This document shows, piece by piece, positions 7,937-29,047 of a stretch of 64,000 nucleotides of DNA; position 1 is the stretch's first letter, and each line of letters starts with the position of its first letter. This DNA comes from Tistrella mobilis KA081020-065 (GTDB lineage Bacteria; Pseudomonadota; Alphaproteobacteria; Tistrellales; Tistrellaceae): assembly GCF_000264455.2 (NCBI RefSeq), contig NC_017956.1:3516001-3580000 (forward strand), written 5' to 3'. Below the pieces are notes generated by a model. It had not been told where the DNA came from and ran no database searches. It saw only the letters and a list, made by a program, of their open reading frames with translations. Both the position numbers and the translations under genes were made by a program.

Positions 7937-8653
7937 GTGTCGGTTTCACCACACACCCTTCCTTCACGGGCAGGCTGCGGATCTCCGACGCGGCGGGCGG
8001 TGCTGGGGCTGATCGGCCTCGGCCTCACCGCCCTTCTTGTCCGCCCCGGCCCCCTCGGCGCCGCAGAGAACCAGCCGCTGATCCTGGCGCTCGGCGACAG
8101 CCTGACCGCCGGCTATGGCCTGCCGGAAGGCGAGGGCCTGGTGCCGCAGCTTGAAGCCGCCCTGGCCGCCGCCGGCCGGCCGGCACAGGTTGAGAATGCC
8201 GGGGTTTCGGGCGACACCACCGCCGGTGGTCGGGCCCGGCTCGACTGGGCCCTGGGGGGCCTGCCCCGCCAGCCGGATCTGGTGATCGTGGCACTCGGCG
8301 CCAACGACGCCCTGCGCGGCATCGCCCCCGACGAGGCCAAGGCCAATCTGGACGCCATTCTGGACACGCTCGGCCGCAAGGGCCTGCCGGTGCTGCTGGT
8401 CGGCATGCTGGCCCCGACCAATTGGGGCCCGGACTATCGCAGGGCCTTCGATGCCATTTATCCCGATCTCGCCGGCACCCACGACGTGCCGCTCGACCCC
8501 TTCATTCTGGAGGGCGTGGCGCTGGAGCCGTCACTCGTTCAGCCCGACGGTCTGCACCCGAATGTGGCGGGGGTGGAGAAGATGGCGGCACGGCTGGCAC
8601 CCGTGGTGATCGGGGCACTTGATGCCCGGAAGGTGCCGAAGGTGAGTGACTGA
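7937..8653 (+). CDS. GDSL/SGNH-family esterase (TesA-like), exported
   Basis: A secreted or periplasmic lysophospholipase/arylesterase of about 238 residues. Catalytic blocks are all present: block I LALGDSLTAGYG (nucleophile Ser), block II Gly in GVSGDTTAGG, block III GANDALRG (Asn), and block V DGLHPN (Asp and His). An N-terminal signal with two arginines (PTRRAVLGLIGLGL) precedes AENQ, so export by Tat or Sec is likely. No good ATG fits; GTG 7937 leaves a signal peptide of normal length, while ATG 7760 would overlap the divergent ABC gene. The start is therefore uncertain, the function is not. Confidence 0.85.
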   Translation: MSVSPHTLPSRAGCGSPTRRAVLGLIGLGLTALLVRPGPLGAAENQPLILALGDSLTAGYGLPEGEGLVPQLEAALAAAGRPAQVENAGVSGDTTAGGRARLDWALGGLPRQPDLVIVALGANDALRGIAPDEAKANLDAILDTLGRKGLPVLLVGMLAPTNWGPDYRRAFDAIYPDLAGTHDVPLDPFILEGVALEPSLVQPDGLHPNVAGVEKMAARLAPVVIGALDARKVPKVSD

Positions 8654-8775
8654 TTGAACACAATGAAGCGCAGGCTGTCCCCCGTCCGCAGGAATGCTAG
8701 GATCGCATCAGGAATGCCCCACGCCGGCAGCCTGTTCCGACCGGCGGCAGACGATACGGAAGGACGAGGAAACCC

Positions 8776-9519
8776 ATGGAGCTTTCGGGCGAATACCGCA
8801 TCCCCGCCGCCCCTGAGACGGTCTGGGCAAAGCTGGTCGATCCGGCAGCGCTCAAGGACTGCATTCCAGGCTGCCAGTCGGTCGAGCAGACCGGCGAAAA
8901 CCAGTATGCCGCCGTCGTCACCGCCAAGATCGGCCCGGTGAAGGCGACCTTCAACGGCCAGGTGACCCTGTCGGATTTCGATCCGCCGAAGAGCTACCGC
9001 ATTGCGGGCGAGGGCAAGGGCGGTGCTGCCGGCTTCGGCAAGGGCACCGCCGATGTGACGCTGGAGCCCGACGGCGCGGGCGGCACCATCCTGCGCTACA
9101 CGGCCGATGCCCAGGTCGGCGGCAAGATGGCCCAGCTCGGCGCCCGGCTGATTCAGGGCACGGTGCAGAAGCTGGCCGACGAATTCTTCGCCAAATTCGC
9201 CGAACTCGCTGCGGCAAGTGAACCGGCCGCCCCGGCGGCTGCACCTGCCGCAGCCCCCGCGCCGGCAGACACCCCTCAGCCGGCACCGCAACCCGATCAC
9301 GGAGCCCCGGTCTCGCCGGCCGCCGCCGGCATGAGCGCGGGCATCTCGCCGGCCGCGGCGGCGATGGATATCGCCGGCCATAACGGCCATGACCATGACG
9401 ATCACGGCCATGACGATCATGGTCACGGCCATGGCAGCCACGGCAAGGGCGCGAACCCCGTCGTCTGGCTGGGCGCGCTGGTGGTCGTCTCGCTGGTGAT
9501 GGTGCTGCTGTTCGGCTGA
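8776..9519 (+). CDS. CoxG-like SRPBCC protein with His-rich linker and C-terminal membrane anchor
   Basis: Residues 1-145 form an SRPBCC/CoxG domain (start MELSGEYRIPAAPETVWAKL; DCIPGCQSV; later GTVQKLADEFFAKF). The family member CoxG helps anchor carbon monoxide dehydrogenase to the membrane, but no CODH genes are nearby. Residues 146-200 are an Ala/Pro-rich linker. Residues 202-222 carry nine histidines with aspartates and glycines, a likely metal-binding stretch. Residues 228-246 are a single hydrophobic helix ending in FG. The start has a clear AGGA-type ribosome-binding site. The general layout (domain, linker, tail anchor) is normal for CoxG; the histidine tract is not something I know from the family. 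Confidence 0.85.
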   Translation: MELSGEYRIPAAPETVWAKLVDPAALKDCIPGCQSVEQTGENQYAAVVTAKIGPVKATFNGQVTLSDFDPPKSYRIAGEGKGGAAGFGKGTADVTLEPDGAGGTILRYTADAQVGGKMAQLGARLIQGTVQKLADEFFAKFAELAAASEPAAPAAAPAAAPAPADTPQPAPQPDHGAPVSPAAAGMSAGISPAAAAMDIAGHNGHDHDDHGHDDHGHGHGSHGKGANPVVWLGALVVVSLVMVLLFG

Positions 9520-9535
9520 AGGCCGGACGGCTGAT

Positions 9536-9562
9536 GACGCGGTCTCCCGACGGGACCGCGTC
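9536..9562. terminator. bidirectional hairpin between convergent genes
   Basis: Perfect 9-bp inverted repeat GACGCGGTC / GACCGCGTC with a 9-nt loop, placed between the stop codons of the convergent CoxG-like and gamma carbonic anhydrase genes. There is no T-run, but position and symmetry suit a shared terminator. Confidence 0.5.
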
Positions 9563-9564
9563 GG

Positions 9565-10095
9565 TCAGCCGACGACGCGCAACCCCGTCCTGAACCGTGC
9601 CGCATTGCGGACATAGCCCTCGGCCGAGCCCTGCAGCATCGCAAGCGCTGCCGCGTCGAGCTGGCGCACCGCCTTTGCGGGGGAGCCCAGGATCAGGCTG
9701 CCCTCTGGGAATTCCTTGCCTTCGGTCACCAACGCATGGGCGCCGACCAGGCAGTTGGCACCGATCCGGGCGCCGTTCAGGATGGTGGCACCGATGCCGA
9801 TCAGGGTGTTGTCGCCGATGGTGCAGCCATGGACCATGGCGTGGTGGCCGATGGTGACGCCGGTGCCGATGGTGAGCGGCACGCCCCGGTCGGTATGGAG
9901 CGTGGCGCCGTCCTGGACATTGGTCCGGTCGCCGACCGCGATCAGGTCGTTGTCGCCGCGCAGCACCGCCCCGAACCAGATGCCGACATCCAGCCCCAGC
10001 CGCACCCATCCGATGACATGGGCATCGGGGGCGATCCAGATCCGGGCCGGATCGGCGATCTCGGGTTCCAGGTCGTCCAGGGCATAGAGCGGCAT
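9565..10095 (-). CDS. gamma carbonic anhydrase-like hexapeptide-repeat protein
   Basis: A 176-residue left-handed beta-helix protein of the YrdA/PaaY/gamma-CA group, expected to form trimers. Hexapeptide repeats run from about residue 18 ([19 protein letters not shown]) to about 140. The three metal-ligand histidines appear in ATLHTDRG and IGHHAMVH. The C-terminal helix is present. Carbonic anhydrase activity is possible but many relatives act as thioesterases on CoA esters, which would suit the neighbouring CoA-transferase gene 37 bp upstream on the same strand. The product probably shares that operon. Confidence 0.9.
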
Positions 10096-16586: not shown

Positions 16587-16836
16587 TTCGGCCACATTAA
16601 CTTTCGACCTCCGTCGGTCGAACGCCACCACGGAGCAAGGAATGAGAGTCTGCATCTATTGCGGCCGTGAAAAACCCGAATGAAGAACTTTCCGACCAAT
16701 AGATATGGCCTAACGCCTTGGGCAACACAAGTGTAGCAACGGCGCGGCAATAGCCGTCGGGAATCCCGAGCCACCGCACAGAGCTAAAATGCCTGCAACC
16801 GGGACCAGCTGATCATGACATTAGGGTAATAGAGAA
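16587..16836. other. gene-free, AT-richer spacer between tacT and tRNA-Arg
   Basis: No convincing gene: short frames on either strand lack motifs and overlap the toxin. Base composition is lower in GC than the surroundings. A short hairpin (CGACC-N6-GGTCG, 16606-16621) follows the toxin stop. No repeat of the tRNA 3' end was found, so an attachment site is not supported. Confidence 0.5.
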
Positions 16837-16913
16837 TGGCGCACTCGACAGGATTCGAACCTGTGACCTCCGCCTTCGGAGGGCGGCGCTCTATCCAACT
16901 GAGCTACGAGTGC
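16837..16913 (-). tRNA. tRNA-Arg (anticodon CCG)
   Basis: Read on the minus strand it has a 7-bp acceptor stem (GCACTCG with CGAGTGC), D arm AGCTCAGTTGGATAGAGC, anticodon stem CCGCC/GGCGG with loop CTCCGAA (anticodon CCG, reads CGG), T arm with GGTTCGAATCC, and an encoded CCA end. All stems pair. The CGG codon is frequent in this GC-rich genome. Confidence 0.97.
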
Positions 16914-18501: not shown

Positions 18502-18663
18502 TTCGTGTCTGCACCGGCCGCTGACGGCATGGGCGCCCCTTGTTCCACGTCCGTTCGCGGATGGGTTCCGGGCGGCTTTCATGCCATACTGCCCGCCGCG
18601 ATGACCGCGGCCTTCCTGTACCCAGACTTATATCCCAGACTTCCCGGAGCCGAGACGGTAGAG

Positions 18664-21480
18664 ATGAGCGACCAGACCCCGAGCCCCCAGAGCCCCCTCT
18701 ACCTCGTCGACGGATCGGGCTACATCTTCCGGGCCTTCCACGCCCTGCCGCCGCTGAACCGCCCCGACGGCACGCCGGTCAACGCGGTCTACGGCTTCTG
18801 TTCGATGCTGCTGAAGCTGATCGAGGATCTGAAGGCCGAGCGGCTGGCGGTGATCTTCGATGCCGGCCGGCTGAGCTTCCGCAATGAGATCTACCCCGAC
18901 TACAAGGCCCATCGCCCCGAGCCGCCGGAAGAGCTGGTGCCCCAGTTCCCGCTGATCCGCGACGCCACCCGCGCCTTCGCCCTGCCCTGCATCGAGCTGC
19001 CCGGCTATGAGGCCGACGACCTGATCGCGAGCTATGCGAAGGCCGCCCGCGAGGCCGGCCAGGAAGTCGTGATCGTCTCGGCCGACAAGGACCTCATGCA
19101 GCTGATCCAGGACGGCGTCTCGCTGATGGATCCCATGAAGGCCAAGAAGATCGGCCTTGAAGAGGTGATGGCCAAATTCGGCGTCGCCCCCGACAAGGTG
19201 GTCGACGTTCAGGCGCTGGCGGGCGATTCCACCGACAACGTGCCGGGCGTGCCCGGCATCGGGGTCAAGACCGCCGCCCAGCTGATCGGCGAATATGGCG
19301 ATCTGGACACGCTGCTCGCCCGCGCGGGTGAGATCAAGCAGCCCAAGCGTCGCCAGACCCTGATCGACAATGCCGACAAGGCGCGCGTCTCTCGTGAGCT
19401 GGTCCGGCTGCGCGATGATGTCGAGCTGCCCGACCCGCTGGACAGCCTGCATGTCGGCCAGATGAGCGCCGAGGTCGTGCTCTCCTTCCTGGAACAGCAG
19501 GGCTTCACCTCGCTGGTGGCCAAGCTGCGGCCGCATCTGGGCGCATCGAAACCCGCCCATGGCGGCAGCAGCAGCTCGGCCGCCGCAGCAGCGGCCGAAG
19601 ACATGCGTGCGGCGGTGCGCGATTACGAGCTGATCCAGGACGAACCCGCCCTCGCCCACTGGATCGAGATGGCGACCGAGGCGGGCATCGTCGGTTTCGA
19701 CACCGAGACCACCAGCCTCGACGCCCATCGCGCCGTGCTGGTCGGCTTTTCGCTGGCGGTGGCGCCGGGCCGGGCCTGCTATGTGCCGCTTCGCCATGTG
19801 GCGCCGCGCAAGGCCCGGCAGGGTGCGCTCGATCTGGGGGCCGCCGGCGAGGCCGGGGCGGATGAGGGCGCGCCCGAGCAGATCCCGGTCGACCGGGCGA
19901 TCACCCTGCTCCGCCCGCTGCTGGAAGCGCCGGGCGTGCTGAAGGTCGGCCAGAACATCAAATACGACATGATCGTCATGGCGCGCGAAGGCATCGAGAT
20001 CGCGCCGATCGACGACACCATGGTCATGTCCTACGCGCTCGACGGCACCCGCCACGGCCATGGCATGGACGAGCTGGCCCAGATCCATCTGGGGGTGACG
20101 CCGATTTCTTATGACGAGGTCACCGGCAAGGGCCGCGACCGGATCGGCTTCGACGAGGTGCCGCTGGACCGCGCCCGCGACTATGCCGCCGAGGACGCCG
20201 ACGTCACGCTGAACCTGCACCGGCTGCTGAAGCCGCGTCTTGGTCCCGAAGGCGTGCGGGCGCTTTACGAGCGCACCGACCGGGCGCTGGTTCCAGTGCT
20301 GGCGCGGATGGAGCGGCGCGGCATCCGCATCGACCGCGACATGCTGGGCAAGGCCTCGCGGGAATTCGCCGACGGCATGGCGGCGCTGGAAACGCGCATC
20401 CACGAGCTGGCCGGGGAGAGCTTCAACGTCGGCAGCCCCAAGCAGCTGGGCGAGATTCTGTTCGACAAGCTGAGCCTGCCCGGGGGCAAGAAGGGCAAGA
20501 CCGGCGCCTATGCCACCGGTGCCGATATCCTGCAGAAGCTGGCCGCCGACGGCCATGAGCTGCCGGCGAAGGTGCTGGACTGGCGCCAGCTCGCCAAGCT
20601 TAAGAACACCTATGCCGATGCGCTGGCCGAGGCGGTGAACCCGGAAACCGGCCGCATCCACACCAGCTTCGCCCTGACCGTCACCACCACCGGCCGGCTG
20701 TCGTCGAACGACCCCAATCTTCAGAACATTCCCGTGCGCACCGAGGAAGGCCGGCGGATCCGCCGCGCCTTCGTGCCCGAGGCGGGCCATGTGCTGATGT
20801 CGGCCGACTACAGCCAGATCGAGCTGCGCCTGCTGGCCGACATCGCCAACATCCAGGCCCTGCGCCAGGCCTTCCGCGAGGGCATCGACATCCATGCGCT
20901 GACCGCCTCTCAGGTCTTCGGCGTGCCGGTGCAGGGGATGGATCCGATCACCCGCCGCCGGGCCAAGGCGATCAATTTCGGCATCATCTACGGCATCAGC
21001 GCCTTCGGTCTGGCCCAGCAGCTGGACATCCCGCAATCCGAGGCCAAGCGCTATATCGAGGCCTATTTCGAGCGCTATCCCGGCATCCGCGACTATATGG
21101 AGCGCGCCAAGGCCGATGCCCGCGCCCATGGCTTCGTGACCACGATCTTCGGCCGCAAATGCTGGACGCCCGACATCGCCGCCAAGAACCCGGCACTCAG
21201 GGCCTTTGCCGAGCGCGCCGCGATCAACGCGCCGCTTCAGGGGTCGGCCGCCGATATCGTCCGGCTCGCCATGGTGGCGCTGGATGAGGCGCTGGAGGCA
21301 AGCCCGCTCGGCGCGCGCATGCTGCTCCAGGTCCATGACGAAATCCTGCTGGAGGTGCCGGAGGCCGAGGTCGAAGAGACCGCCGCCCTGGTCAAGCGGG
21401 TGATGGAAGATGTGGTGTCGAGGCCGGTGCCCTATGTCGTCGAAGTCGGCACCGGGCTCGACTGGGATGCCGCACATTGA
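18664..21480 (+). CDS. polA: DNA polymerase I
   Basis: Repair and Okazaki-fragment processing polymerase, 938 residues. The 5'-3' exonuclease domain (about 12-300) has YLVDGSGYIFRAFHALPP, ELPGYEADDLIA and GDSTDNVPGVPGIG. The 3'-5' exonuclease domain (about 340-540) keeps its acidic residues in GFDTETTSLD, NIKYDM and YAAEDADVT, so proofreading is probably active. The polymerase domain has motif A DYSQIELR, motif B RRRAKAINFGIIYG and motif C QVHDE. ATG 18664 sits directly before the conserved start; earlier in-frame ATGs fall in non-conserved sequence. alkA follows at once. Confidence 0.97.
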   Translation: MSDQTPSPQSPLYLVDGSGYIFRAFHALPPLNRPDGTPVNAVYGFCSMLLKLIEDLKAERLAVIFDAGRLSFRNEIYPDYKAHRPEPPEELVPQFPLIRDATRAFALPCIELPGYEADDLIASYAKAAREAGQEVVIVSADKDLMQLIQDGVSLMDPMKAKKIGLEEVMAKFGVAPDKVVDVQALAGDSTDNVPGVPGIGVKTAAQLIGEYGDLDTLLARAGEIKQPKRRQTLIDNADKARVSRELVRLRDDVELPDPLDSLHVGQMSAEVVLSFLEQQGFTSLVAKLRPHLGASKPAHGGSSSSAAAAAAEDMRAAVRDYELIQDEPALAHWIEMATEAGIVGFDTETTSLDAHRAVLVGFSLAVAPGRACYVPLRHVAPRKARQGALDLGAAGEAGADEGAPEQIPVDRAITLLRPLLEAPGVLKVGQNIKYDMIVMAREGIEIAPIDDTMVMSYALDGTRHGHGMDELAQIHLGVTPISYDEVTGKGRDRIGFDEVPLDRARDYAAEDADVTLNLHRLLKPRLGPEGVRALYERTDRALVPVLARMERRGIRIDRDMLGKASREFADGMAALETRIHELAGESFNVGSPKQLGEILFDKLSLPGGKKGKTGAYATGADILQKLAADGHELPAKVLDWRQLAKLKNTYADALAEAVNPETGRIHTSFALTVTTTGRLSSNDPNLQNIPVRTEEGRRIRRAFVPEAGHVLMSADYSQIELRLLADIANIQALRQAFREGIDIHALTASQVFGVPVQGMDPITRRRAKAINFGIIYGISAFGLAQQLDIPQSEAKRYIEAYFERYPGIRDYMERAKADARAHGFVTTIFGRKCWTPDIAAKNPALRAFAERAAINAPLQGSAADIVRLAMVALDEALEASPLGARMLLQVHDEILLEVPEAEVEETAALVKRVMEDVVSRPVPYVVEVGTGLDWDAAH

Positions 21481-21485
21481 CGGCG

Positions 21486-22469
21486 ATGCCTGCAGATAGC
21501 GGAGCCGTCGAGGCGGTCGCCCCCGGCCGGATCCGGCTGCCGGCCGGCATCGATCTGGTCACCGCCTTCGCGGGCCTCGCCGCCCATGGCGATGACGGGC
21601 TGGTGCGGCTCGACGGTGACCGGCTCTATACGATCGAGCGGATCGAACGCGCGCCGGTGGCGGTGGAAACCATCCTCACCCCCGATGCCCGGGGCGATTT
21701 GCAGGTGACGGTGGAAACCGGCGCCGTCGACCTGCTCGAGATCGCGACCCGCGCCATTGCCGCCCGTCTGCATCTGCCGGGTGCGGCCTTCGCGGCGCTT
21801 GCCGCCGATGATCCGGTGATCGGCCGGATCGCCGCCGCCCAGGGGGTGCGCCCCACCCTGCTCTACCCCGAGCCCATGGTGGTGATGCTGCGCACGATCA
21901 GCGCCCAGCTGGTCAACCTCGCCTGGGCCGCGACCACCCGCCGTCGCCTGGCCGAAGCCTTCGGCATCCGCCGGCCGGTGGGCAGCGGCTGGGTGATCGA
22001 TATCGACCCGGCCCGGATCGCGGCGATCGACCCCGACGAGATCAAGACCCTGCAGTTCACCGGCGCCAAGGCCCGGGCGATCGTGAGCGTGGCACGGGCG
22101 ATCGTCGACGGCCGGCTGGATGCAGCCGCCATGGCCGCGGCCGACACGCCGGAAATCCGCAGCCGGCTGACCGCCATCTCGGGCATCGGCGACTGGACCG
22201 CAGACTGGGTTCTGGCCCGCGGCCTGGGCCGGCCGGTGGTCGCGACCGGTGATCTGGGCGTGCGCAAGGCCGTGGCCCGCGCCTATCACGATGCCGAGAT
22301 CATTCCCGCGGCCGAGGTTGCCCGCACCACCGCCCATTGGGGGGAAGCCGCCCTCGACGCCCAGACGCTGCTGCTCTCCACCCTCGGCGCCGCCGGGGCC
22401 GAGGGCGCCACCCCGCGGCTTGCCCGCAAGCGGGCCGCCGTCACCTCGCCGGAGGAGAAACGCCCATGA
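21486..22469 (+). CDS. alkA: DNA-3-methyladenine glycosylase II-type (AlkA/HhH-GPD)
   Basis: Base-excision repair glycosylase for alkylated purines, about 327 residues. An AlkA-like N-terminal beta domain is followed by the helix-hairpin-helix GPD fold: ISAQLVNLAWAATTRRRLAEAF, LTAISGIGDWTADWVLARGLG, and the catalytic aspartate in GDLGVRKAVARAY. A TTG at 21477 overlapping the polA stop is an alternative start to ATG 21486. Its end overlaps osmC by 4 bp, so polA-alkA-osmC may be one transcript that links polymerase, alkylation repair and peroxide defence. Confidence 0.88.
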   Translation: MPADSGAVEAVAPGRIRLPAGIDLVTAFAGLAAHGDDGLVRLDGDRLYTIERIERAPVAVETILTPDARGDLQVTVETGAVDLLEIATRAIAARLHLPGAAFAALAADDPVIGRIAAAQGVRPTLLYPEPMVVMLRTISAQLVNLAWAATTRRRLAEAFGIRRPVGSGWVIDIDPARIAAIDPDEIKTLQFTGAKARAIVSVARAIVDGRLDAAAMAAADTPEIRSRLTAISGIGDWTADWVLARGLGRPVVATGDLGVRKAVARAYHDAEIIPAAEVARTTAHWGEAALDAQTLLLSTLGAAGAEGATPRLARKRAAVTSPEEKRP

Positions 22470-22942
22470 GCGGCCGTATCCACCGCTACACCGCCGAAAC
22501 CGTCTGGACCGGCGATACCGGTCAGGGGACGGCCGGCTACCGCAGCTATTCCCGCGATCACGACCTCAAGATCGCGGGCAAGCCGGTCATCGCCGGCTCT
22601 TCGGACCCGGCCTTCCGCGGCGACGCCACGCGCCACAACCCGGAAGACCTGCTGGTCGCCTCGGCCTCTGCCTGCCACATGCTCTGGTATCTGCATCTGG
22701 CCAGCACCCGGGGCATCGTCGTGCGCGGCTATACCGATGCCGCCGAGGGCGAGATGACCGAACGCGCCGATGGCGGCGGCGCCTTCACCCGCATCCGGCT
22801 CAGGCCGCGGGTGACCATTTCCGCCGGCGATCCGGCCGTGGCGCAGTCCCTGCATGCCGAAGCGCATCATCTCTGCTTCATCGCCAACAGCCTGAGCTGT
22901 CCGATCGAGATCGAGGATACGGTCGAGGTCGTCAGCGCCTGA
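22466..22942 (+). CDS. OsmC/Ohr family protein
   Basis: A 158-residue member of the OsmC family, which reduces organic hydroperoxides with a reactive cysteine pair. Cysteines stand in SASACHMLWYLHLA and NSLSCPIEIE at the expected positions. HNPEDLLVASASAC is the usual lead-in. ATG 22466 shares 4 bp with the alkA stop (ATGA) and has GGAGGAG upstream. It is closer to the YhfA/OsmC-like subgroup than to classical Ohr by eye, with low certainty. Confidence 0.9.
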   Translation: MSGRIHRYTAETVWTGDTGQGTAGYRSYSRDHDLKIAGKPVIAGSSDPAFRGDATRHNPEDLLVASASACHMLWYLHLASTRGIVVRGYTDAAEGEMTERADGGGAFTRIRLRPRVTISAGDPAVAQSLHAEAHHLCFIANSLSCPIEIEDTVEVVSA

Positions 22943-22973
22943 GCACGAGCCGAGCCCTCTTGCGGAGCACGTC

Positions 22974-24389
22974 TTGAAGATCCGGATCGATATCGACAGT
23001 CTGCTCGACGAGATCGCCCCTTCGATCGTCAGCCGGGGTGAGCGCTACCACCACGATGGCCGCGTGACCATCCTCGACGCCGATCCCCACCGGGTGCTGG
23101 CCAGGGTGGAGGGCACGGAGCCCTACATCACCCGCCTGTTCATCGACCGGGATGGCCATGTCGATGGCGACTGCAGCTGCCCGGCCTATGAAAATTACGG
23201 GCCGTGCAAGCATATGGTCGCGGTGGGGCTGACCATCCTGAAGACGGGGTTTCAGCCCGATCCCGAGATCGCCCGGACCCGGGCGCGGATCCGCACCCAT
23301 CTGAAAAGCCTGGACGTCGACACCCTGGTGGGAATCGTGCTCGACTGCGCGCTTACCGATCCGGAGCTTTATCGCAGGCTCGATCTGACCGCCTTGCCTG
23401 GCGATGAGAGTGACGACGACGCCTTCACGCGCCTCGCGAAGGTGATCGACGCTGCGCTGCCCGACGTGGAGGATGATGGCTGGGTCGATGCGGATATGGC
23501 CGAGGGCTGGACATTATCGATCGATCCGATCCTGACCGCCCTGCAGACCATGATCGAGACCGGCCGCGCTGAGCTGGCCCGACGCCTGATCGATCATGTC
23601 CATGCCGCCGCCTGCCGTCTGATCGTCGGCATTGAAGGCGACAACACGCCAGTCATCGAGCTGTTCTCCAGGTTGGACCAGCTGCATCTGGCCGCCTGCC
23701 GGGCAGCAGCGCCGCCGCCCGTCACGCTGGCGGCGTGGCTTTTCGCGCGCGATATCATCGCACCGGAAGAGATCGGCAGCCGTACGATTGCGGGTTACGC
23801 AGATCTCCTCGGCCCCGAAGGCCTTGCGAGCTGGCGCCGGCTCGTCGCCGAGGCCTGGGCTGCCGAACCGGTGATTGCCCCCAGGCCTGATAGTGGCACG
23901 CTCCCGGAGATACCGGCGCGGCGCCTCGCGCTGGCGCGGATCATGGAGCAGATCGCGGAGGCTGATGGCGATGTCGAGGCCCGGATCGCCATCCGGGCCA
24001 GAACCCTGACATCGCCCGCCGACTATCGGAAACTGGTGGAGTTCTGCCTGGAAGCCGACCGGCCCGATGCCGCCCGACACTTGCTGGACGAGGGGATCTG
24101 GCTGTTTGAGGGCAGGAAGCAACTTGTCCGGGAGCTGATCACCCTCAAGACCAGGCTAAAGACGCCCGCCAAGGCGTCGTCACCCCCTGCGGATGCAGAG
24201 ATCCAGGCACGTACGGATCGGATCGAAGCGCTGATCGCGACCGGGGGCAGGCCAGCCTATGAACAGGCCTGCCAGCTGCTGAAACAGTTGGCACCGCTGA
24301 GGAGTCCCGCCGCTCATGCGACGCATCTGGACGAGATCAGGCGGCGCTACCGCAGCCGTCGGGTACTGATGAGCCTGCTCGACGTCTGA
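22974..24389 (+). CDS. SWIM zinc-finger domain protein
   Basis: A 471-residue protein of unknown role. Residues about 62-85 form a SWIM zinc finger (DGDCSCPAYENYGPCKHMVA: CxC...CxH), a motif that binds DNA or proteins. The remaining 380 residues are mostly helical with a weakly repeated character; the segment around EIQARTDRIEALIATGG resembles helical repeats in other bacterial SWIM proteins. It starts with TTG behind CGGAGCAC. Its end lies 6 bp from the end of the convergent Nif11-like gene. Base use is slightly less GC-rich than in polA. Confidence 0.82.
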   Translation: MKIRIDIDSLLDEIAPSIVSRGERYHHDGRVTILDADPHRVLARVEGTEPYITRLFIDRDGHVDGDCSCPAYENYGPCKHMVAVGLTILKTGFQPDPEIARTRARIRTHLKSLDVDTLVGIVLDCALTDPELYRRLDLTALPGDESDDDAFTRLAKVIDAALPDVEDDGWVDADMAEGWTLSIDPILTALQTMIETGRAELARRLIDHVHAAACRLIVGIEGDNTPVIELFSRLDQLHLAACRAAAPPPVTLAAWLFARDIIAPEEIGSRTIAGYADLLGPEGLASWRRLVAEAWAAEPVIAPRPDSGTLPEIPARRLALARIMEQIAEADGDVEARIAIRARTLTSPADYRKLVEFCLEADRPDAARHLLDEGIWLFEGRKQLVRELITLKTRLKTPAKASSPPADAEIQARTDRIEALIATGGRPAYEQACQLLKQLAPLRSPAAHATHLDEIRRRYRSRRVLMSLLDV

Positions 24390-24395
24390 CCCGCA

Positions 24396-24683
24396 TCAGC
24401 CGCCGTAGATCTGCCCCTGCGCGACCGAGATCCAGTCGATGCCGGCACCGCCGGTCACGCGCTCCAGTGCCGTGTCGTCGATCGCGCCGTCGGGGCCGAC
24501 CGCATCCCGCGCCGCCTCGATCCGCGCCAGCACCTCGGAGGCCAGGGCAAAGCCGTGGGCATCGGCCGCCGCGGTCAGCAGGGCGTCGCGGGCGGCCGGC
24601 GTCGCCGCATCGGCCAGGGCCGCCGCAAGCCCCGGATCGGCGGCAAGCAGATCGACGAGAAGACGAGCGCTGTCATCGGACAT
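24396..24683 (-). CDS. Nif11-like leader peptide family protein (RiPP precursor-like)
   Basis: A 95-residue small protein. Residues 1-55 match the Nif11/NHLP leader (SARLLVDLLAADPGLAAAL, then TAAADAHGFAL). Residues 71-80 have the cleavage-type motif LERVTGGAG with a double glycine at 78-79, as in natural-product precursors matured by a double-glycine protease/exporter. The remaining core (residues 80-95, AGIDWISVAQGQIYGG) has no cysteine and one serine. No modification enzyme or exporter is in the window. The ribosome-binding site AGGAA is well spaced. It may be an orphan precursor acted on by enzymes elsewhere, or a Nif11 protein with another function. Confidence 0.75.
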   Translation of the reverse strand: MSDDSARLLVDLLAADPGLAAALADAATPAARDALLTAAADAHGFALASEVLARIEAARDAVGPDGAIDDTALERVTGGAGIDWISVAQGQIYGG

Positions 24684-24803
24684 TGGGGCGTTCCTGCAAG
24701 CTGGGTTGCGGCCCGACGGGGCTGGCCGGCGGGGACCGCCGGGGCATGACTGTCGGCTGACGTTATCCTAGCATCATGCCAGGTACCCGGCCGCCAGACG
24801 CAA

Positions 24804-24833
24804 CCGGCCGGTCGACACTCGTCAACCGGCCGG
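24804..24833 (-). terminator. strong hairpin after the hsp20-DUF1150 genes
   Basis: CCGGCCGGT and ACCGGCCGG form a perfect 9-bp stem with an inner GAC/GTC pairing. It lies about 50 bp after the DUF1150 stop in the direction of transcription and before the Nif11-like gene. No T-run. Confidence 0.45.
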
Positions 24834-24884
24834 GAAAGGTCGCGGGGCAAAAGCTCGTAGGGGCAGGATCGCAGGCGACGGCGA

Positions 24885-25151
24885 TCAATGGATCGTCGCC
24901 GGCACCATCTCGTGCTGCAGGATGGCGCCGATCGCAGAGGCGCTGTCGGCCATCACGGCGACGCGTTCACCGCTGGCGGAAAATACGCCGAACATCACGC
25001 CGCCGGCAGTGGTCACCGGGCGGACATAGGCCACCTGCTCAAGCCCCAGCGCCGCGAAGGCTTCGGGCGTCATCCGGCGGATGGCGGCGCGGGCCGCTTC
25101 GGCCACATCGGCAGGGGAACGGGTCGTCTCTTCCAGGTTGAAGCGGGGCAT
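24885..25151 (-). CDS. DUF1150 family protein
   Basis: An 88-residue protein of a family restricted mostly to alphaproteobacteria and usually encoded beside small heat-shock proteins, as here. Family segments are EAFAALGLEQVAYVRPV and FGVFSASGERVAVM followed by AIGAILQHEMVPATIH. ATG 25151 gives the usual length. Role unknown; the position 91 bp downstream of hsp20 on the same strand suggests co-expression under heat shock. Confidence 0.9.
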   Translation of the reverse strand: MPRFNLEETTRSPADVAEAARAAIRRMTPEAFAALGLEQVAYVRPVTTAGGVMFGVFSASGERVAVMADSASAIGAILQHEMVPATIH

Positions 25152-25242
25152 GGGATCAGCCTCCTTCGTCCGCGGCCGTGCCGGGCACCGGATCGGTCGC
25201 CCTGTCGCCCGCGATGGGTCCACGTCTCTTCAGGATAAGCGG

Positions 25243-25701
25243 TCAGCGCTCGTCGAGCAGGCTGCCCGACTGGCGTCCGTCCGGCTGGGTCTTGCGGATC
25301 GAGATCGTCCGCACCGAGGATTGCGGCAGCGGTTGCTCCAGATCGATATGAAGCAGGCCGTTGTCCAGCGAGGCGTCCATCACCTGGATGCCGTCGGCGA
25401 GCAGGAAGGTGCGCTGGAACTGCCGGGCCGCAATGCCGCGATGGATGAACTCCCGGCCGTCATTGGCGTCGTCGTGCTGCCGCCCGCGGATCACCAGCTG
25501 GTTGTCTTCCAGCGTGACCGTCAGGTCGTCCATGGTGAAACCCGCGACCGCAAGCGTGATGCGCAGCCGCCGCTCGCCGAGTTTCTCGATGTTGTAGGGC
25601 GGGTATCCGTCGGAGCCGGTCTTGGCCAGACGGTCCAGCATGCGCTCCATGTGGTCGAAGCCCAGCATCATCGGGTGATTGAAAGCGGTGAACCGCGACA
25701 T
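25243..25701 (-). CDS. Hsp20/IbpA-type small heat-shock protein
   Basis: A 152-residue ATP-independent chaperone that holds unfolding proteins. The alpha-crystallin domain spans about residues 35-130 (YPPYNIEKLGERRLRITLAV, LEDNQLVIRGRQ, IAARQFQRTFLLADGI). The C-terminal region includes RTISIRK. ATG 25701 is preferred over 25710 because GGAGGAG stands 9 bp upstream of it. A sigma-32-like promoter is 190 bp upstream. DUF1150 follows on the same transcript. Confidence 0.93.
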   Translation of the reverse strand: MSRFTAFNHPMMLGFDHMERMLDRLAKTGSDGYPPYNIEKLGERRLRITLAVAGFTMDDLTVTLEDNQLVIRGRQHDDANDGREFIHRGIAARQFQRTFLLADGIQVMDASLDNGLLHIDLEQPLPQSSVRTISIRKTQPDGRQSGSLLDER

Positions 25702-25893
25702 CCCTGACATCTCCTCCGCGACAGACGAGCGAGATCCGGATCCGGCTGCCGTGGCGGCGACCTCCTTGGGGAGCATCCACCGCGCCCGGCCGGCGCGCCG
25801 GCAGGTCCGTCCGACGGGTGGTCTCCGGTCGCTTTCTCCGCCCGCATTCCGGGCCGGAGACGGCGTTCACCGGCCGTTCCATCGGTTATCTGG

Positions 25894-25922
25894 AGATAGG
25901 GAAGCTGAGAGGTCCGTTCAAG
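25894..25922 (-). promoter_or_regulatory. heat-shock (sigma-32) promoter of hsp20
   Basis: On the minus strand CTTGAA (25917-25922) is followed by CCTATCT (25894-25900). The distance from CTTG to CCTATCT is 18 bp. This matches the alphaproteobacterial RpoH consensus CTTG-N17/18-CYTATnT. The gap 25702-26028 holds only this promoter, the leader and the tRNA terminator; no gene. The leader would be about 185 nt, long enough for an RNA thermometer, but I cannot show one. Confidence 0.7.
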
Positions 25923-25990
25923 ACCAGGCAGGCGCGGCACCGGGCACGCGACATGACACCCCGGGCGACAACGCAGCCTGGGCAACGACG

Positions 25991-26022
25991 AAAAAGCCCG
26001 GTACCGAAGCACCGGGCTTTTT
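25991..26022 (-). terminator. rho-independent terminator of tRNA-Ala
   Basis: A 12-bp perfect stem (ACCGGGCTTTTT with AAAAAGCCCGGT, 8-nt loop) directly downstream of the tRNA on the minus strand, ending in a T-run. Also fits as a bidirectional terminator. Confidence 0.85.
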
Positions 26023-26028
26023 CGAAGA

Positions 26029-26104
<76 letters not shown>

Positions 26105-26200
26105 GAAACCTGTCTGATGCCGTTGGCTGCGTGTGACCGGGGTCCCGGTTTCCGCTGCCGTGCGCCGTTTGGGGCGGCGCGCCGTGCGTCAGCGGAGCGG

Positions 26201-26229
26201 AACATAGTGGCCGCGGCCGGGCTTGGCAA
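26201..26229 (-). promoter_or_regulatory. promoter of tRNA-Ala
   Basis: On the minus strand TTGCCA (26224-26229), 17 bp, TATGTT (26201-26206), about 95 bp before the mature tRNA 5' end. Both boxes are one or two bases from consensus and the spacing is ideal. Confidence 0.5.
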
Positions 26230-26328
26230 GCGGTTTTTTTCACGCCACCGTCATCTTCGACGACAGCGGCAGGAACTGTGATGCAAGCCCCTGCTTTTGC
26301 TTACAAAAAGCCGTCCCCTGAAACCGAA

Positions 26329-26358
26329 ACCGGCGCCCCTGGGTCGAGGGGCGCCGGT
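26329..26358 (-). terminator. hairpin after the FYDLN gene
   Basis: ACCGGCGCCCC / GGGGCGCCGGT is a perfect 11-bp stem with an 8-nt loop, 8 bp past the stop of the FYDLN-acid gene. TTTCGG follows, and GGCTTTTTG comes about 20 nt later. Confidence 0.6.
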
Positions 26359-26365
26359 CGCGGGA

Positions 26366-26719
26366 TCAGTTCTCGTCGTCCTCGTCGCCGAGACGGACGT
26401 CACCGACGTCATCGTCACCCAGCTCCGAGGCATCTTCGATGCCGACATCATCCTCGTCGTCATCCTCGAAGGCCTCGTCGAAGCCTTCCTCGTCGACATC
26501 CTCCACCTCTGCCGGCACGACCTTGGCCTTGCGGGCCTGGGCCGCGCGCTCACGGGCCAGCTCGTCGGCCTCCCGTGCGGCCCGGCGGGAACGGGTCTCT
26601 TCGATCTGCGGCTGCTCAGCACCGCATTTGGGGCATGTCACCGGCGTGCGGCGCATATCGTAGAAGCGCGCACCGCAGCTGCGGCAGGTGTGCTTCTGCC
26701 CCCACTCCTCCTTCGCCAC
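26366..26719 (-). CDS. TIGR02300 / FYDLN-acid domain protein
   Basis: A 117-residue protein. The N-terminal zinc ribbon (HTCRSCGARFYD, then VTCPKCGAEQP) carries the family motif, here FYDM instead of FYDL. A short basic helix follows, and the C-terminal third is a run of Asp and Glu with very few other residues. The family is alphaproteobacterial and uncharacterised. The gap of 291 bp to divergent aroA holds promoters for both genes that I cannot place with confidence. Confidence 0.92.
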   Translation of the reverse strand: MAKEEWGQKHTCRSCGARFYDMRRTPVTCPKCGAEQPQIEETRSRRAAREADELARERAAQARKAKVVPAEVEDVDEEGFDEAFEDDDEDDVGIEDASELGDDDVGDVRLGDEDDEN

Positions 26720-27010
26720 GCGACCACCCTTGATAGCTGTTGGACGTGTACAGGAACGAATTCACGGGAACGGGTTGCCGGCACAAGGGGCCGGCCATGG
26801 TGATGGCGCGATCGTGCGCGTCACCCCGTCGGCTGCGTTTGCCACGAAGCGCCGGGGCTGTCAAACCGCTAAATGCGTCCGGGCAGGGTTGCATCGCCGA
26901 CATCGCCATTCGGTGGGGGGCCTGCGATGATGCACAGGGGCCCCTGCTGTGATAGACCAGCCCCGAACCTTTCCCGCTTCCGCCCCGCCTTTCCGGACAA
27001 GGGCCCCGTC

Positions 27011-28378
27011 ATGACCCATGCCGCGCCGCATCCCGCCACCGCCCGCCTCTCCCACGGGCTTTCGGGCGACGTCACCGTCCCCGGCGACAAGTCGATCTCG
27101 CATCGGGCGTTGATGCTGTCGGCGCTGGCGGTGGGGCGCTCCACCGTCGACGGTCTGCTGGAAGGCGAAGACGTGCTCGCGACCGCGGCCGCGATGCGCG
27201 CGCTCGGCGCCGGCATCACCCGCGAAGAGACCGCCGGTCCCGACGATACCCCGGCCATCCGCTGGGTGATCGACGGCGTGGGTGTCGGCGGCCTGGCCGA
27301 ACCGGCCGATGTGCTCGACATGGGTAATTCGGGCACGGCGGCGCGGCTGCTGATGGGCCTGCTCGCCACCCATCCGCTGGTCGCGGTGATGACCGGCGAC
27401 GCCAGCCTGCGCAAGCGGCCCATGGCCCGGGTCGCCACCCCGCTCGAAAAAATGGGCGCGAAGATCGTCACCCGGGCCGGCGGCCGGCTGCCGGCCACCG
27501 TCATCGGCACCCGCAGCCCGGTGCCGATCCGCTACCGCCTGCCGGTGCCCTCGGCCCAGGTGAAGTCGGCCATCCTGCTGGCCGGGCTCAACACTCCCGG
27601 CCGCACCGTGGTTGTGGAACCGGAAGCGACGCGCGACCACACCGAACGCATGCTGGGGGCCATGGGCGCCCGGATCACGGTCGAAACCGAGGCCGACGGC
27701 GCCCGGGTCATCACCCTCGACGGCCAGCCGGAACTCAGCGCCCGCGACATGACCGTGCCGGGCGACCCGTCCTCGGCCGCCTTCCCGCTGGTCGCAGGGT
27801 TGATCACCGAAGGCTCGGCCGTCACCGTGCGCAATGTCTGCCTCAACCCCGGTCGCGACGGATTGATCCGCACCCTGGTCGAGATGGGCGCCGATCTGAC
27901 CGTCACCAACCCGCGGGATGTGGGCGGCGAACCGGTCGGCGATCTGGTCGCCCGCTCGTCCGCACTCAAGGCCGTGACCGTGCCCGCCGAACGCGCGCCC
28001 TCGATGATCGACGAGTTTCCGGTGCTGGCCGCCGCCGCCGCCACGGCCCACGGCACCAGCCGTTTCGAGGGGCTCGCGGAACTCAGGGTCAAGGAAAGCG
28101 ACCGGCTGCAGGCGGTGGCCGACGGCCTGGCCCGTGCCGGCGTCACCGTGCGCACGGGCGAGGACTGGCTGGAAGTAGACGGCTGCGGCGGCCCGGTCCC
28201 GGGCGGCACCGACGCGGTCGTCACGCATCTGGACCATCGCATCGCCATGGCCTTCCTGGTGCTGGGCCTGGCTGCACGCAACGGCATGGTGGTCGACGAC
28301 GATCGGATGATCGCCACCAGCTTCCCCGGCTTCCGCGCCCTGATGACCGGGCTCGGTTGCGACATCACCGATCTCTGA
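27011..28378 (+). CDS. aroA: 3-phosphoshikimate 1-carboxyvinyltransferase (EPSP synthase)
   Basis: Shikimate pathway enzyme joining shikimate-3-phosphate and PEP, 455 residues. Motifs: [85 protein letters not shown], and the C-terminal RVKESDRL with THLDHRIAM. The pattern is of the class II type known from Agrobacterium. At the inhibitor-sensitivity position this protein has glycine (GNSGTAAR), as sensitive enzymes do. ATG 27011 begins right before the conserved domain. cmk follows after 24 bp. Confidence 0.96.
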
Positions 28379-28402
28379 GCCTGCCGGAGCCCGCCGCGCA
28401 TC

Positions 28403-29047
28403 ATGACCCGGACCCTCATCCATCCGCCGGTGATCGCCATCGACGGCCCGGCCGCAGCCGGCAAGGGCACGCTCGCCCGCAGGCTCGCAGCCGAACTGGG
28501 GCTGCGCCATCTCGACACCGGCATGATCTATCGGGCGGCGGCAAGCCGGCTGCTCGCCGGCGGCGGCGATCCGGACGACCCGGCCGCGGCCGCCCTGGCG
28601 GCGCAGACCCTTGGTGCCGACGATCTCGTCCGCACCGACCTGCGGGCCGAGCGCACCGGGGAAATCGCGTCGAAAATCGCGGCACTCGGCCCCGTTCGTG
28701 CCGCCCTGCTCGACTTTCAGCGCAGCTTCGGCCGCACCGCTCCGGGCGCCGTGCTCGACGGTCGAGACATCGGCACCGTGGTCTTTCCCGACGCGCGCGC
28801 GAAGATCTTCGTGACTGCCTCGCCCGAAGCGCGTGCACTCAGGCGACACGAAGAGTTGCGGGGCAAGGGGGTTGCCAGTATATTCGCCGACGTTCTGGAA
28901 GAGATGCGGCTGCGAGACCGTCGCGACCGGGAACGAGCGGTGGCCCCGCTGCGTCCCGCGGACGACGCGGTCACCCTCGACACCACCGACATGTCGGCGG
29001 ACGAGGTTTTCGCGGCAGCGCTCGCGCATGTCACCAGCCGGCTCTGA
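28403..29047 (+). CDS. cmk: cytidylate kinase
   Basis: Phosphorylates CMP and dCMP, 214 residues. P-loop AIDGPAAAGKGTLARRLA, then HLDTGMIYRAAA, the CMP-binding stretch LDGRDIGTVVFPDA, and the lid RRHEELRGKG with RDRRDRERAVAPL. It lies between aroA and rpsA as in most alphaproteobacteria. Confidence 0.95.
   Translation: MTRTLIHPPVIAIDGPAAAGKGTLARRLAAELGLRHLDTGMIYRAAASRLLAGGGDPDDPAAAALAAQTLGADDLVRTDLRAERTGEIASKIAALGPVRAALLDFQRSFGRTAPGAVLDGRDIGTVVFPDARAKIFVTASPEARALRRHEELRGKGVASIFADVLEEMRLRDRRDRERAVAPLRPADDAVTLDTTDMSADEVFAAALAHVTSRL

Follow-up and report, generated by a model that had tools for sequence, protein, structure and literature searches.

The open reading frame at positions 24396-24683 of the 64,000-nucleotide stretch of Tistrella mobilis KA081020-065 DNA analysed here (the window) is a genuine gene under purifying selection, and is best explained as a functional Nif11-leader (N11P) precursor, stand-alone in its genus. 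Its core is constrained at least as strongly as its leader. As far as the sequence can tell, it is somewhat likely that an NHLM system acting in trans cleaves the precursor and exports its core; less certainly, the core would be little modified or unmodified, giving a small secreted peptide. This kind of secreted bacterial peptide is already known, and the window precursor is new to it.

The precursor gene and its surroundings

The translation of the frame on the minus strand agrees with the one on which the original prediction was based, and the features discussed below are collected in Table 1. The gene is convergent with a SWIM-domain gene, the stop codons of the two lying 6 bases apart, and DUF1150, which itself follows hsp20, is found 201 bp upstream. 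The position of the gene is the same in the sister species, where the order precursor/DUF1150 is also retained (L014). The hairpin in the gap to DUF1150 has z values of -3.5 and -4.3 and recurs in the sister species as a 12 bp version; it may be a terminator-like element without a T tail that separates the precursor gene from hsp20-DUF1150. Because this GC-rich hairpin is conserved, the precursor gene probably has its own transcript, and a promoter and terminator scan returned no consensus promoter or terminator near it. Elsewhere in the window, at 16822-16913, ARAGORN calls a tRNA-Arg on both strands at the same place, and one of these two calls is likely a symmetry artefact.

Table 1. Coordinates of the precursor gene, its parts and the related loci of the source genome (G000).
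Feature	Location	Strand	Remarks
Precursor gene	24396..24683	-	95 aa, ATG start, TGA stop
Nif11-like leader, residues 1-79	24447..24683	-	Sub-threshold TIGR03798 match; profile A2 against profile A3, E=7.6e-13
Double-Gly codons G78-G79	24447..24452	-	Predicted C39 cleavage after G79; V-4, L-7, I-12
Core AGIDWISVAQGQIYGG	24399..24446	-	16 aa, no Cys, one Ser, one Asp, no Lys or Arg
Shine-Dalgarno-like AGGA	24692-24695	-	8 nt upstream of ATG; read from sequence
13-bp GC-rich hairpin	24804..24833	.	Between DUF1150 gene and precursor gene
Two tandem Nif11-like precursors with adjoining enzyme genes	G000:C1 ~660.4-670.1 kb; L009:12393-13699 and L010:1781-8077	-	Cores AASAAMILPGGWTFGG and VAVNGAYMPLGGGWMISGN
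Class II lanthipeptide locus, LanM and Nif11 precursor	L025:8264-11401	+	Core GSPYCIFTKGCYCIFTK, three Cys
Complete NHLM exporter L027	G000:C1 ~1.680-1.687 Mb		HlyD, ABC1 with C39 and ABC2 all above NCBIfam cut-offs
Second NHLM exporter L026	G000:C1 ~1.616-1.622 Mb		GG-leader protein adjoins

Conservation and selection

Two other genomes of the genus contain orthologs: that of the sister species (G001), in which the protein is 88% identical, and a second genome of the same species (G058), which shows a single amino-acid difference, located in the leader, and one silent change in the core. Between the source genome and the sister species, 32 base changes fall on codon positions 7/3/22, with a dN/dS of 0.23. 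Codons 77-94, which span the end of the GG site and nearly the whole core, carry no base change at all; if the changes were placed at random, an unchanged run of at least 18 codons would arise with p~0.02. The first 15 of the 16 core residues, AGIDWISVAQGQIYG, are the same in all three genomes.

Membership of the Nif11 family

The precursor matches both library models of the family under their curated cut-offs, with E=0.0034 and 18.1 bits for PF07862 (cut-off 23.8) and E=0.002 and 18.3 bits over residues 1-79 for TIGR03798 (cut-off 32.3). In the TIGR03798 search, the leader is Nif11-like and not nitrile-hydratase-like. A PF07862 search of its own genome gave no match, because the model is too strict for the group to which the precursor belongs. 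A profile of the window-type peptide and the tandem pair at 661 kb (A2) was compared with a profile of 17 related precursors (A3), which include LanM-adjacent and NHLM-adjacent ones and of which 16 match TIGR03798. The two profiles align at E=7.6e-13 over 70 columns up to the GG site, which shows that the leader is homologous to those of recognised Nif11 precursors and supports the Nif11-like leader originally proposed, even though the library matches are sub-threshold. A double-Gly site followed by a short variable core (the cores of the paralogs differ) and two sets of NHLM exporter genes in the same genome complete the family picture. Orthology, paralogs and the profile-profile match are three independent lines, and the gene is therefore not a product of chance.

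Scans of genome contigs with profile A1 and with the protein, among which near genomes may be absent, returned no relative, nor did a plasmid tblastn with the precursor. The phylum-wide A2 search found the window-type peptide in its own genome only, together with two weak matches. A weak protein match in another genome (G039) was rejected, as its codon bias is wrong and a better ORF occupies the opposite strand.

The genome encodes at least five other GG-leader precursors, in a list that profile searches supplied and that is possibly incomplete. The close paralogs are the tandem pair at ~661 kb, which is the closest (37-42% identity), and the LanM partner at 2.691 Mb (L025), whose core is near-identical in three other genomes (G001, G136 and G317). 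The leaders of these paralogs end alike, in DD..L..V(A/T)G(G/A). Other alphaproteobacterial relatives are found beside LanM-like genes (L063, L064), beside NHLM exporters (L065, L066) or as solitary genes (L067-L070).

Cleavage site and exporters

The leader of 79 residues closes with LERVTGG, and its end, IDDTALERVTGG, places V at -4, L at -7 and I at -12. The window contains 266 ORFs of 50-160 aa, and of these the precursor alone has a C39-type pattern, defined as hydrophobic residues at -12, -7 and -4, then xGG, and a core of 5-60 aa. The double-Gly site read from the sequence earlier is borne out; these three residues and the GG are retained in all three orthologs. In the LahT150 co-crystal, Val-4, Leu-7 and Leu-12 occupy a hydrophobic groove of the C39 protease, and LahT cleaves Nif11 and NHLP leaders carrying varied cores (PMC6363468).

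The original prediction had called for a genome search for maturation enzymes and a C39 exporter, and this search found LanM, YcaO and radical SAM proteins as well as two NHLM exporters. In the second exporter (L026), HlyD is above its NCBIfam cut-off, ABC1 just under and ABC2 under. As read from the sequence, the C39 domains of both exporters have the Q, C, H and D that such domains should carry. The genome combines a GG leader with a C39 exporter, as for unmodified exported peptides of the microcin or EbfG kind. NHLM ABC1 occurs in 32 of 385 alphaproteobacterial genomes (23 of 277 genera), and every genome with a strong Nif11-like precursor (E<1e-3) has it (8/8 genomes, 5/5 genera). This co-occurrence (Fisher p=9e-10 by genome and p=2.6e-6 by genus) is a genomic association drawn from few precursor genomes and not proof of substrate identity, and it matches the phylogenetic link drawn by Haft et al. 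for the NHLP family (PMC2887384). Weak precursor matches (E 0.001-0.01) mostly lack NHLM ABC1 and are probably noise.

One of the two NHLM systems, encoded ~1.9 Mb away, would read the leader through its C39 domain and cleave after the GG, whereupon the 16-residue core would be exported. Less certainly, the core would reach the outside largely or wholly unmodified, as a signal, a microcin-like peptide or a surface peptide. Such a fate is suggested by a core with no Cys, one Ser and no Lys or Arg, by the lack of an adjacent enzyme gene, and by Cys-less Nif11 precursors that adjoin NHLM exporters without a recognised RiPP enzyme in at least one other genus. The latter arrangement is found in G108 (L066), where no gene in the neighbourhood is recognised as a RiPP enzyme; the Cys-less precursors of G051 (L065) are likewise NHLM-adjacent, though a GT41 glycosyltransferase lies nearby. 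Dispersal of precursors is known from prochlorosins, whose precursors also have Nif11 leaders (PMC10783134), and the GG peptides EbfG1-4 are exported by the C39 transporter PteB and have a physiological role (PMC4997328).

Candidate maturation enzymes and alternative explanations

A scan of nine flanking proteins (18505-29047), with the remainder of the window listed only, found no maturation enzyme. The description of the gene as an orphan holds locally and fails genome-wide, where at least five other GG-leader precursors are encoded along with a LanM, two NHLM exporters with intact C39 domains and a TOMM YcaO pair. A processing enzyme in the genome and conservation of the GG site and core, in whose absence the original prediction was to be given up, both exist. 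It is very improbable that the precursor is a substrate of the LanM, radical SAM or YcaO proteins and matures into a lanthipeptide, an epimerised peptide or an azole peptide. The genome does encode a LanM (L025) and TOMM SagC- and SagD-like proteins (L029, in which the YcaO is the SagD-type protein next to the SagC-like one), and a LanM that serves dispersed precursors is known from the prochlorosin system. However, with no Cys and one Ser the core could not form lanthionine and could yield one oxazoline at best, in line with the earlier view that this is not an ordinary lanthipeptide, and the LanM lies 0.85 Mb off beside a Nif11 precursor of its own, which has three Cys. Genes for a B12 radical SAM protein, a TglI-like protein and a small acidic peptide accompany that of the LanB-like protein (L097), a locus with its own carrier peptide that matches the tmo pearlin cluster, which has been described from Tistrella mobilis and is reported to occur in KA081020-065 (PMC9303977). 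LanM, PEARL and YcaO enzymes were thus rejected as maturases on core composition and on their own substrates. The proteusin-like epimerisation once suggested finds no support, as no PoyD-type epimerase was matched in three genomes, a weak negative in which no positive control matched either. A single SPASM radical SAM protein (L098) was found in the genome, and it is accompanied by its own DUF1843 peptides.

Tailoring of the core in trans by the enzymes at 661 kb, followed by NHLM export, is possible though rather doubtful. The DUF6445, FemAB-like, NRPS (C-A-T-TE), hydrolase and halogenase-like flavoprotein genes that adjoin the tandem precursors are conserved in the sister species, and DUF6445, the FemAB-like protein, the NRPS module and the halogenase-like protein, plausible tailoring enzymes all, are the only enzymes beside close paralogs. 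The locus is possibly a RiPP/NRPS hybrid cluster with its own two precursors; the cores of both, like that of the window precursor, are Cys-less, aromatic and Gly-rich near the end, and the HxD...H pattern of DUF6445, read by eye, resembles that of 2-oxoglutarate oxygenases. Yet apart from a loose aromatic-Gly ending the three cores have no motif in common, the precursor gene lies 2.9 Mb from the cluster, searching by sequence turned up no structure relative for DUF6445, and the enzymes may serve an unrelated NRPS product. It is improbable, in turn, that the precursor stays in the cytosol as a Nif11-like protein or is a relic in decay, neither cut nor exported. Its solitary position beside housekeeping genes, sub-threshold Nif11 score and lack of a promoter match would fit such a protein, whereas the dN/dS, the near-invariant core and the retained GG site argue for a functional precursor.

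Side observations and wider implications

A second solitary GG-leader peptide (L071:9267-9566, minus strand, G000:C1 ~2.016 Mb) ends in VGNMR, and the GG-leader protein that adjoins the L026 exporter (L026:10523-11260, minus strand) ends in IGNMR; the common tail may link the former gene with that exporter. At L066 in G108 (8011-9855, plus strand), an NHLM exporter is accompanied by three small peptides that all end in KQW, and two of the three have Nif11-like GG leaders. A solitary NHLP-family precursor at ~755 kb (L084:1099-1674, plus strand, G000:C1) has two NHLP stretches and a VAGG site. At L065:4940-10185 (plus strand) in G051, three Nif11-like precursors accompany the NHLM exporter, with the GT41/SPINDLY-type glycosyltransferase 1.5 kb upstream, and the products are possibly glycosylated peptides. 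In G206, a Nif11-like precursor whose core starts with KGHHHHHHHHG (L100:4647-4997, minus strand) lies at most 10 kb from an NHLM exporter, and the peptide is perhaps metal-binding.

Short common C-terminal tails thus occur in two Tistrella peptides (GNMR) and in three peptides of another genus (KQW), while an aromatic-Gly-Gly tail is found in the window core and one paralog. In a broader and distinctly long-shot reading, a scattered, mostly Cys-less set of GG-leader peptides would share the two NHLM exporters in trans, the tails would sort the peptides to exporter, enzyme or receptor, and the core would be an invariant genus-wide signal or a product tailored by DUF6445 or the FemAB-like protein. 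Solitary, sub-cut-off precursors tend to escape cluster-based genome mining, and a single alphaproteobacterium can hold dispersed Nif11-type precursors together with NHLM exporters, as is the case for prochlorosins in cyanobacteria. A specific 16-residue peptide and specific exporter genes are now named as targets.

Comparison with known systems

With the N11P family (TIGR03798; Haft et al. 2010, PMC2887384) the window precursor shares the leader layout, the GG site, paralogs with different cores and NHLM (TIGR03794/6/7) exporters in the genome; unlike its members, it is under the curated cut-off and solitary, and its core is without Cys and nearly without Ser/Thr. The peptides LahA1-9, cut by LahT, likewise have Nif11 leaders with V-4, L-7 and a hydrophobic residue at -12 and undergo a core-tolerant C39 cut, although they are clustered with their transporter (PMC6363468), which the window precursor is not. 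The prochlorosin precursors (ProcA/SyncA) combine a Nif11 leader with single dispersed genes far from enzyme and exporter, as here, whereas their cores are lanthionine substrates of one LanM (PMC10783134) and the window core is not. EbfG1-4 of Synechococcus elongatus are also small GG-motif proteins, served by the C39 peptidase transporter PteB and with no modification known; unlike the window precursor, they are longer, are encoded in one operon and have a role in biofilm (PMC4997328).
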